DNA of 64,000 nt. Source: Meandrina meandrites (lineage: Eukaryota > Cnidaria > Anthozoa > Scleractinia > Meandrinidae). How positions within the stretch are numbered: position 1 is the first letter of the stretch; every line of letters begins with the position of its first letter. Location: contig OY855911.1 of the NCBI GenBank assembly GCA_963693305.1, positions 30,458,939-30,522,938 on the forward strand, written 5' to 3'. The notes under the pieces are model-generated. The model ran no database searches. It had not been told where the DNA came from and saw only the letters and a list, made by a program, of their open reading frames with translations. This document shows positions 21,648 through 27,848 of the stretch, piece by piece. The position numbers and the translations under genes are program-made.

Positions 21648-24600
21648 ATGGAGTTGATCGGGAAAGCTTTGACATTCTTTGTGCTGTTCCAAGCGTACAC
21701 GTCGATAACTTGCCGACTGTGCGATTTTTCCATTGAAAGCTCGGCGTCCAGTTGGGTTCGAAAGCCTTGCGCTTTTTACTTCAACAACAAACCCGAAACT
21801 AAATACATTGGATTTGAATTCCGATTAAGAGATGACACGGTGGCGAAACGGGCTTTTGAAGTTGTAGAAGCGGATTTTAACGAGTTCTCTCACAGTACTT
21901 TGACGCCGTGGAACCATAGCTGTGATTGTACTGAAGTACGATGTTTGAACGAGGAACAATTAAACAAGTTGTTTGCTTTCAGCGTGGAACAAGCCCACCA
22001 AGAAGCGAGGTGCAGATTTCCATTTATTTCTACACTATGCTGTTCTTTTCAACAAGCTTTAGAGGAAATCGTTTATCGATTAGATGGAGAGCAAGTCACC
22101 AAGCTAACGAAAATCACTTTGAAAGAAATTAACATGCAGAAATGGACAACTCATTTGATTGATGGACTTCGACAAACGGAATGGTGTGAATCTTTCAAAG
22201 CGAAATGCGACGCTGTCGTGCAACGCATTTCGAAAGGATGTGAAGAAAAAAGGAGGGAGAAAAGAGATATTGGTGTTAAAACTTCCACAATGTGTGGCCC
22301 ATCTTCATGCCATCACGGTAAGAACTAATTACTCAGATCGCTTATCGTTAAATTCATGTTTGCATAGTGTTGTTTACAACAGGTAGCCGTTCCCGCGTAA
22401 ACAAATTAAGAAGGAATGCTCGCGCGGAAATGCCTTTTTGACGCGAAAACTTTCGAAGTTTTTTTTTTTACATTCATGTGGTATTTATTTTTATCATGAC
22501 TAAAATTGATGCGTCATTTTTAAAAGGAAGCGAAACTGAGCTGAATATCAAATGTTTGAGTTCATTACAATTTACATTTAATGACGATAACTTTATGCTA
22601 TTCGGCTTTGAAGCTGTTTGAAGTGTAGCTTTTTCTCGGGGATGTTGGTCTTGTTTATCCAATGTCAATTGACGCAGAAAATGCTTGTATAAATCTTTTT
22701 ATCGCTTCACTCAGAAAAAACGTTTAACCTGTTTTGGAAGGATTAAACGTTTTACCGAAGGGCATTGATGTAATCAATGCAGATATATTTGCCTTTTCAT
22801 TTTCATTTGTATAAATATAAAAGTAAAAGATATTTGTACATTTCGGAAAGCGCGAAATGCTATTTCTGACTTCACCGAGAGCATCAAAACTGCGGTCATC
22901 GCTTCCAAAAAATTACAAGAAAAAAATAACTTGTGTCAGTCAGGCATGAAAAGTTAATGACACTGTAAAACTTGTCAGCATAATTTAACTCATAAGCGGT
23001 AACAAACTGAAACAAAAGACAAAAGCCGGCTGCATTTATATATTGAGGACAAATTAATTTTATCTCTGTCGACATTAATTATTTTATTGCTTACGTCAAA
23101 AGGCAACCGCGGAAGCATCAACAGGCGGACGAAAAAAAAAAGTTGGAATATGAAATCAAATGAGTTTTTGAGCTGATTGCAAATATATCTTATAGCCATC
23201 TTAAATGCAAATTTCTCAACTGGTACTATAAAGTACTGTTTTAGGACTTTTAGGCTTGTTGGCTTTAGCACAACATGACCGCATAAAATTACAAAATTCT
23301 GTTATTTAACTTTAGGATATTAGAGTCTTGTGAGTTATATTTATAATGTTGGAGGCATAAATGATTATCCAATATCACAAAAACTTGACGAAAACGTGTA
23401 TCATGGTCTCGTAATATTATAAAATTATATCAACTCCTAAACTAAACCGCCCGCCAACTTTAGGGAATCGCGCATGATTTTCCCGCCCTCTCTCTTGGTA
23501 TACAAAATGTGATGTAGACTATATTTCAAATTAGACAGAGAGTTTGTTTTGGTCTTTGACGAGGGTTTGATATAGGGCTGCAACGATACATTTTCTTAGC
23601 AACCGATACATATCTCGGTACAAGTGCCACGATACGATACACGATACGATACATCATAACATACAACTGACAAGTGACGTAATGTAACTAAACTGCTTTG
23701 GAATCTTTAATTTCCATTGACAACAATTACATACATACATACATACATACACCAGGCGGTGTTGGACACGACTCGCAAAGCATGCCGGAAGAACTTTTCG
23801 ATTGTACTCATTATTGTCTGATCGTCGGACTGTAAACATATCCTCGAGGTGAGAAGATATTCCTATGCTGAAAGAAATTTCGGAGGAAATCCATACCAAA
23901 TCTTTGTGGGCCAAGTAACAACTATAGATGTGTATTGCTGGATTCGCAAAGGCGCCATTGATGTGGACCTGCTAACAAATGGTAACAAATAACACAAGAA
24001 TATAACGAGAAGTGTCTTACTCCTTGGCCATCGTAAAAAACTTTGAATCCAAGGTCTTTCCATACCTTTGACTTACAAGAGGACGGTGCCAGTTGTAACT
24101 CAACTGCAGAGGAAGACATTTTGACGAAAGAACCAACGTGACGAACGAACCGCATGTTTTTGTTGCGGGCGCATAAGACTGTGTCAGCTGACAACTTATT
24201 GAAACTACGCATGCTTTCGTGCCGCCATCTTGAAATATAAGTGACTGGAAGCATGCGAAACGATACTAAGCAACGACGAAGCCCTGTGGCTAAAAAAAGG
24301 CTTGTACTTGGGTAAGGAGTCATAAAACTGATTAAAACAGTAATTTCTGAATGTTGGTAAAGTAATTTTTCATTTTTGATGATACACGCGATACAGCGAT
24401 ATCCCATTCAAATATCGATATTCGTATCGTGACAAAAAATATCGCGATTCACCGGTGCACCGGTGTATCGTTGCAGCCCTAGTTTGATAGGAGGTACGAG
24501 TGCCTGTGCTTGAAATAAATTTTGTACTGCAAAGAGGTGATATTTTAGTGTGAAACGAGCGTGAACGCTCGAGAGGGTCATGCGCAAGTTGATAATTGCT

Positions 24601-26577: not shown

Positions 26578-27848
26578 TAACAACAGCAACAATTGCAGTA
26601 ATCGGTCCACCAGCAACACCAAAGCGTTCCTCTTCGACACCATCACCGTCGTCTGTGTCACTACAATTGTCATCAACAGTCTCTTTACTATCATTACCCT
26701 TAATGTCAGTGTCAACATCATCAACAACAAAATCTACATCGTTGCCGCCATCAATTCATCCATCGTCAGTACCATCACTAACAACCATCACAGAACCCAA
26801 GCCTTCACCCGCGCCAACACCGCTGTATGTGTCTTCGCGCTTATCCACGCTTCCGAATCTAACGTTGAACACGAAAACTTCACTTGTTCCTCAAAGTACT
26901 AAACACCATTCTTTATTGTTAACGTCCTTGGGGACAACACAGTCTTCCAGTTTACGAGAAATACTCAACAGTTTGTCTTACACTGGAACAAAAACTGCTC
27001 CTTCCAGCATTCTTCACACACTGTCATTGGAATCGTCGTCTTCAACGCCAAGTACAGCTTTACCAGCAGTAACTAAAACGTTTCTTATAAAGTTCAAAGC
27101 TACCTGTAGCATAATCACAGACAAGGATGATTTCGGATTTAATTTTATAGCCACACTAACACACCTCCTGCAGATCTCAACGACTGACGTCATAGTTCAT
27201 GACGTAACATGCGGCTCGGTGGATGTTGCTTTCATGGTCAAAAGCGCGCTTGGCAGAAACTTAACAAGCGAACTCTGGGCAGCGATAAAAAATGAATCAT
27301 TCGTATTTACGTACAACGGGACGGAGCTTGTAGCTTTTGAATTGAGTGAGATCCCGAGCCCGTCCGTAATTTTCACATCTTCTACCATGTCTCCTTCGAC
27401 GCCGTCAGAAACGTCCAAACATGAAAGGAAAAAGGTCGTTTTCATAATATTCGTGTTTATCGGTTCTGTTTTCGCAGCGTTGTTTATATTTTTATTGGTG
27501 GTATTTTTGGCCAGGTTTTCAGGCTGCTGTCGGAAGGCTGGAAAATTGCGCGTGCGTAGAAACGTTCGCTTGCGCCCTCCTTTTGAATCCGAGTTGAAGC
27601 GGTTTGCGGCGCGTGGAAGTCTCTTCCAGGGAGTGAATTATTACGGAGATATCACTCAACTGGAGGAACATAGAAGGGATAGTGTAACTATTGAAGATGA
27701 CGCGGAAGAGGATTTCTTTGAAATTCATCCAGTTGATACGAACGCATGTTTGCTAAATCACACCAATCACACGGACTCTAACAAACGAGAAGAATGCAAG
27801 TTTGTTTTTGACGACGATGAATCGTGCTCAAGTGTACTATTTTATTAA
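21648..27848 (+). CDS. Pseudolysozyme-mucin-SEA-like transmembrane protein
   Basis: Two exons, 21648-22317 and 24751-27848, phase-1 intron, 1255 residues. The start at 21648 (MELIGKAL...) mirrors the neighbour's MELKEI... signal peptide. Residues about 23-223 align with the neighbouring T4-type lysozyme: WNHSCDC..RCL, CCSFQQAL, EWC....C and SKGC are conserved. The Glu, Asp and Thr catalytic positions are replaced (SSWVRKPCAFYFNNK), so no muramidase activity is expected. Residues about 224-995 are a Ser/Thr/Pro-rich mucin-like stalk, probably heavily O-glycosylated, with a poly-Pro/poly-Ser tract encoded by trinucleotide repeats. Residues about 1000-1088 form an alpha/beta module with G1045-S1046-VDV, resembling the SEA autocleavage site GSVVV. 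A transmembrane helix follows (about 1119-1144), then an acidic tail of about 110 residues with a YGDI sorting-type motif. Inferred: a cell-surface mucin that may bind microbial glycans. It could alternatively be purely structural. Confidence 0.85.
22717..22755. repeat. Small inverted repeat in the mucin intron
   Basis: AAAACGTTTAA and TTAAACGTTTT are separated by 14 bases. Confidence 0.45.
23573..24481. mobile_element. hAT element, 909 bp, with 8-bp target duplication
   Basis: The ends TAGGGCTGCAACGATACA and the reverse complement are perfect for 18 bp. GTTTGATA directly abuts both ends (23565-23572 and 24482-24489), the 8-bp duplication typical of hAT. Minus-strand fragments (for example KSKVWKDLGFKVFYDG) may be remnants of a BED-type zinc finger, but no intact transposase is present. 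It contains a short CATA microsatellite near 23730 and lies within the intron of the mucin gene. Confidence 0.9.
26480..26577 (+). repeat. Coding trinucleotide microsatellite (CAC)n(CAT)n
   Basis: About 30 bp of CAC repeats followed by about 68 bp of ATC/CAT repeats, read in frame as poly-Pro then poly-Ser in the mucin stalk. It is expected to be length-variable without breaking the frame. Confidence 0.9.

Follow-up and report, generated by a model that had tools for sequence, protein, structure and literature searches.

In a stretch of 64,000 nucleotides of contig OY855911.1 from the coral Meandrina meandrites (assembly GCA_963693305.1, positions 30,458,939 to 30,522,938, forward strand; the window), a two-exon gene on the plus strand at 21648-27848 encodes a predicted membrane mucin whose tip is a relative of GH24 lysozymes that has lost the catalytic Glu and Asp. 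Exon 1 (21648-22317) starts with the ATG at 21648, exon 2 (24751-27848) includes the stop codon ending at 27848, and the intron of 2433 bases between them (22318-24750) has GT-AG borders. Joined in phase, as proposed in the initial annotation, at the codon G|AT (phase 1), the exons form a frame of 1255 residues without internal stops; AATAAA signals are found at 28128 and 28159. A predicted signal peptide (residues 1-21, 21648-21710) is indicated by a hydrophobic N-terminus in the translation which aligns with the leader of a neighbouring lysozyme, and no window of 19 residues in the N-terminus exceeds 1.6 on the Kyte-Doolittle scale. It is followed by the pseudolysozyme head (residues 22-200, 21711-22247), a Ser/Thr/Pro-rich stalk (residues 224-1000, 24751-27080), a SEA-like module (residues 1001-1091, 27081-27353), a membrane-spanning helix (residues 1119-1143, 27435-27509) and a cytoplasmic tail (residues 1148-1255, 27522-27845). 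From the head onwards, this succession had been outlined in the initial annotation, and it is supported here, being conserved as a family; the gene very probably encodes a single-pass membrane mucin of this architecture. Homologous protein clusters number 18 for the first half and 88 for the second, and one annotated gene model from another coral fuses the halves at the same junction, so that the arrangement appears to be more than chance. The frame, the homology of the head, the family-wide loss of two catalytic residues and the conservation of both halves are read from sequence, and the SEA-like fold and the membrane helix come from models.

The head is related to an active-type GH24 lysozyme, the head-to-head partner of the mucin gene on the minus strand (exon 1 at 19345-20005) and the closest relative of the head found in this genome. 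As the initial annotation had noticed, the two align through their cysteines, and BLASTP gave 28% identity at E=3e-24 (lysozyme segment 19355-20005, minus strand). Profile-profile comparison of 17 pseudolysozymes with 19 active relatives yielded a probability of 99.8 and E=1e-27. The neighbour retains Glu35, Asp44 and Thr50 and matches T4 lysozyme (E=1.1e-9), and by way of this match the head belongs to GH24 by sequence homology. Two results weigh against the assignment: the Pfam family PF00959 does not match the head, to which Pfam assigns no family, and a profile of the head found no lysozyme in the PDB. A sequence search of the PDB with the head returned no relative but chance matches only (e.g. 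2eo1, E=0.016), and the single-sequence structure prediction of the head, with a predicted local distance difference test score (pLDDT) of 38.8, was too low for a fold reading. Scanning IMG/VR with the head alignment matched a pattern in 13 stretches, none of which was confirmed.

The catalytic positions were counted in an alignment of 69 rows, in which the sites are not covered by 2 of the 19 pseudolysozyme and 4 of the 50 active rows. In the other 17 pseudolysozymes, the window protein included, the column of the catalytic Glu contains Trp (15), Ser (1) or Phe (1) and that of the catalytic Asp contains Phe (15) or Val (2), so that both residues are changed in 17 of 17 rows. Glu, Asp and Thr are all retained in the 46 active rows spanning the three sites, among them the neighbouring lysozyme. 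The Thr column of the pseudolysozymes holds Thr in 13, Ala in three and Lys in one row; the ungapped BLASTP alignment places Thr51 of the head on the catalytic Thr, and an alternative register would place Tyr53 there. The claim that all three catalytic positions are changed goes too far: it stands for Glu and Asp but is unsure for Thr. Judged by the alignment, two of the three catalytic residues are surely gone while the third is ambiguous, and the muramidase activity of the head has in all likelihood been lost.

Conservation of the head was examined against 46 active rows (4 of 50 left out), in which 84 columns are at least 90% conserved. The pseudolysozymes keep 32 of these, namely 12 of 16 cysteine columns and 20 of 68 non-cysteine columns. 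The cleft loop GGPGFAQFT of the active enzymes (G142, F146, F149) and M137 are replaced in all counted pseudolysozyme rows (keep 0.00). A further 35 columns are conserved among the pseudolysozymes but hold a residue other than the commonest one of the active family. By these counts the cysteine scaffold is kept and the cleft is not. No disulfide pairing could be derived from the pattern of lost cysteines across the pseudolysozymes. In a tree of 59 rows (10 of the 69 dropped) the 17 pseudolysozymes fall on one side of a branch with a support of 100/100.

Being derived from a lysozyme and carried at the outer end of a membrane-anchored stalk, the head could act as a sensor of peptidoglycan or chitin oligomers that, though dead, keeps its sugar binding and reports bacteria at the coral surface. 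The replacement of the cleft loop residues and of M137 in all counted rows and a tail in which no signalling domain was recognized (Pfam scans of the window protein and 15 members) argue against this and make it an unlikely function. The initial annotation had suggested that the pseudolysozyme senses or binds peptidoglycan, for which no positive support was obtained. Because this loop has been rewritten, the idea that the head binds peptidoglycan as its ancestor did is unsupported and was set lower.

Between head and stalk lies the sequence REKR (residues 203-206, 22254-22265), which matches R-X-[KR]-R, taken here as the furin consensus. This motif is present behind the head in all 19 pseudolysozymes and occurs anywhere in the sequence in only 2 of 46 active rows; the column of its last Arg holds Gln in all active rows counted. 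From the motif and its conservation, cutting by furin at the predicted site appears rather likely. Two cysteines that follow the site (columns of C216 and C221, each 0.95) are mostly conserved, so that a cut head could be either free or tethered by disulfides. The conserved furin-type site, an intron position common to the mucin and the neighbouring lysozyme and a paralogous mucin (see below) add to what the initial annotation had described.

A head cut at REKR might also leave the cell as a factor in its own right, for instance to shield the active lysozyme by drawing off the lysozyme inhibitors of bacteria as a decoy, with the mucin serving as carrier. Such a role would fit the invariant site and the pairing of head and active lysozyme on the same contig suggested in four further assemblies. 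There, pairing is deduced from the equal size of the longest contig in four match pairs (P0009/P0110, 263712; P0011/P0121, 1258384; P0015/P0125, 1290043; P0018/P0133, 552502), which suggests that other species have retained the gene pair as well. The cysteines behind the site could nevertheless hold the head in place, the decoy role is hypothetical, and release as the purpose of the gene seems improbable.

The head is less conserved than the lysozyme: in the four contig-matched pairs, identities to the window proteins are 67, 61, 57 and 48% for the head compared with 86, 79, 76 and 72% for the lysozyme. This faster evolution might indicate a decaying pseudogene or an inert cap, the lysozyme exon contributing nothing more to the mucin than a signal peptide and a folded terminus. 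Given that the 18 clusters of exon 1 homologues are open frames at 48-98% identity and that the 12 cysteine columns, the 35 family-specific columns and the furin-type site are conserved, we regard this explanation as quite improbable.

The stalk comprises 777 residues with 47% Ser, Thr and Pro and one Cys, in good agreement with the approximately 770 residues reported initially. In eight measured homologues the stalks, some of them without their start, have 517-793 residues and 44-49% Ser, Thr and Pro. CAC/CAT microsatellites at 26479-26577 code for in-frame Pro and Ser runs of the stalk; the part at 26509-26577 is a perfect CAT microsatellite of 23 copies coding for Ser, whose length likely varies among individuals.

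The alpha/beta module next to the membrane was predicted with a pLDDT of approximately 90 and resembles SEA domains, as anticipated for residues 1000-1088. The sequence CGSVD (residues 1044-1048, 27210-27224) occupies the turn that links strands 2 and 3, where SEA domains have their cleavage site, and includes the beginning of the GSVDV noted initially (residues 1045-1049). All 88 exon 2 homologues have the motif CGS[VI]xVxF, with the turn predicted at model residues 57-59. The residue after CGS[VI] is D, S or G, compared with V in GSVVV, the self-cleavage consensus of SEA domains in membrane mucins. No Pfam SEA match was obtained for the window protein or for any of the 15 members scanned, Pfam names no family for the module, and its profile retrieved no relative among PDB sequences (best E=1.2). 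The module is classed here as SEA-like and not as a member of Pfam SEA. The top hydrophobic stretch of the protein begins at about residue 1119 (Kyte-Doolittle maximum 3.07 at residue 1122) and corresponds to a predicted helix, in line with the membrane helix expected. The tail contains NYYGDI and ends in SVLFY; N[YF]YG is found in 87 of the 88 homologues and [VI][LM]FY forms the C-terminal end in all of them. It had been described as acidic and as carrying YGDI: the motif is present at residues 1188-1191, but the acidity is only mild (21 Asp and Glu versus 16 Lys and Arg in 108 residues). A long Ser/Thr/Pro-rich stalk, a membrane helix and a tail, as expected of a membrane mucin, are all predicted in this protein.

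The 88 clusters of exon 2 homologues share 47-71% identity with the window protein, and the nearest named relative of the C-terminal part is from Desmophyllum pertusum (69%). As 82 of them have the form NYYGE and seem to make up a single clade of close relatives, they do not represent 88 independent lineages. Within the first 120 residues of each homologue, a start consistent with the splice acceptor, [VA]D.GSV, was found in 76 of the 88; the other 12 lack the motif there. Among the named relatives, P0023 and P0155 are from D. pertusum, P0108 from Oculina patagonica and P0145 from Nematostella. P0023 (OS493_010454) contains both halves, fused at CKN|DIGSV compared with CHH|DTGSV in the window. 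The two proteins agree best in the helix (80% identity), followed by the head (75%), the module and the tail (73% each) and two parts of the stalk (53 and 62%); the model lacks 43 head residues. According to PMC10022433, the D. pertusum annotation drew on RNA sequencing among other evidence. It is very unlikely that a secreted pseudolysozyme and a membrane mucin are encoded by two independent genes lying in line with a coincidental in-phase join: the join is read from the DNA frame and most homologues, being single-exon open frames, cannot test it, but exon 1 has no stop until past the GT donor, exon 2 lacks a leader of its own and mostly keeps the acceptor-consistent start, and P0023 fuses the halves at the same junction.

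Taken together, we lean slightly towards a membrane mucin whose GH24-derived tip, without catalytic Glu and Asp, binds rather than hydrolyses and is released or tethered after a furin-type cut. The stalk would be O-glycosylated and would project the head far into the surface mucus. Cutting at R-X-[KR]-R would take place during secretion and leave the head either released or held by disulfides that bridge the cleavage point. The SEA-like module may serve as a membrane-proximal break point or as strain relief, and the constant SVLFY end of the tail might recruit a PDZ-type scaffold. For the head, a non-lytic role in binding or assembly is most likely; that its main job is to bind a partner other than sugar is a tentative proposal. 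More doubtful, though conceivable, is a membrane mucin of stony corals with a detachable head, for which an exon copied from the neighbouring lysozyme was spliced to a mucin, catalytically killed and furnished with a furin site; where coral and microbes meet, the head would now be the active lysozyme's partner, either releasable or gated by force.

The neighbouring lysozyme gene has a second, cysteine-rich and granulin-like exon (17416-17663, minus strand), and a phase-1 join of its two exons gives a protein of 302 residues. Its relatives occur in other corals and in Nematostella, the nearest named one being from O. patagonica with 90% identity; the Nematostella relative matches granulin at E=0.0069, which is below the curated cut-off. 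The introduction of PMC12855814 states that bona fide lysozymes are apparently absent from Cnidaria, and g-type lysozymes are reported there in the same paper. Protein searches of the 551-Mb assembly (56 contigs) with the head and with the lysozyme returned the same two GH24 places each, namely the adjacent pair. In the lysozyme, exon 1 likewise has a phase-1 end, at a Gly codon aligned with the exon-end Gly of the head. That the two genes share this break point, in residue and in phase, suggests a tandem duplication plus an exon swap. In the simplest history, the lysozyme would have been duplicated head to head, and its first, phase-1 exon would have become linked to the last exon of a membrane mucin of the SEA type, replacing the granulin-like exon.

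For the C-terminal part one other match was found in the genome, on contig C8 (L006, C8:25654890-25658492), with 31% identity. This paralogous mucin has an open frame of 1264 residues with 20-residue Ser-rich tandem repeats, a SEA-like module with CGSILV, a membrane helix and NYYGE; an N-terminal exon was not recognized in the 10 kb upstream of its stalk.

Corals contact microbes via the layer of mucus on their surface, and only a small number of surface receptors are known from corals. A membrane mucin that is conserved, apparently present in a single copy and equipped with a non-catalytic head, situated beside its likely parent enzyme, would provide a concrete and testable molecule at this interface. 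It would also be a clear example, among animals, of exon shuffling turning an immune enzyme into a surface module. Other dead lysozymes are known: alpha-lactalbumin and sperm lysozyme-like proteins are lysozyme folds that have lost catalytic residues and acquired binding roles. To our knowledge, neither these proteins nor human LYG1 are fused to mucins, and unlike the GH24 head they belong to other lysozyme families (c-type, g-type). LYG1 has a lysozyme fold with lost catalytic residues as well, according to PMC11576321.

The nearest architectural analogue is SpmX of Caulobacter, for which a common origin of the architecture is not claimed. As described in PMC5347347 and PMC4460556, SpmX likewise combines a lysozyme-like domain, a disordered Pro-rich linker and a membrane anchor; no activity of the domain was detected, and its fold serves assembly and recruitment. 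It differs in being bacterial and held largely cytoplasmic, in keeping the catalytic Glu, in having two membrane helices and in lacking a mucin stalk and a SEA-like module. With coral and Nematostella GH24 (T4-type) lysozymes the coral gene shares the homologous domain, the cysteine scaffold, the exon-end Gly and the phase-1 intron, but its head has neither the catalytic Glu nor the catalytic Asp, its cleft loop has been rewritten and a mucin exon takes the place of the granulin-like exon. Membrane mucins of the MUC1/MUC16 type with SEA domains, including a MUC1-like mucin of Actinia tenebrosa (PMC9080433), are similar in their leader, Ser/Thr/Pro stalk, membrane-proximal SEA or SEA-like fold, single membrane helix and tail. 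In contrast to them, the coral protein has a lysozyme-relative tip with a furin-type site behind it, and its module is unmatched by Pfam SEA and flanked by C1009 and C1044. The word 'lysozyme' does not occur in the main text of the A. tenebrosa paper, nor do 'lysozyme' or 'mucin' in that of PMC13044578 on novel coral genes. The parts are of known kinds (GH24, SEA-like fold, membrane mucin), while their combination was not found in the open-licence PMC papers searched, which agrees with the earlier remark that no family of this architecture has been described.

Several further elements were observed in the window. The intron of the mucin gene contains a hAT-like element (23573-24481) with perfect terminal inverted repeats of 18 bases and a flanking direct repeat of 8 bases, the latter spotted by eye. 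Another element, with inverted-repeat arms of 62 bases (87%), lies between the two divergent genes at 20363-21076 and may split a shared promoter region, if there is one. Farther away are an intron-free frame resembling voltage-gated potassium channels (4875-6221, plus strand; BTB_2 and Ion_trans) and a reverse transcriptase frame of a retroelement (45757-47880, minus strand; RVT_1).
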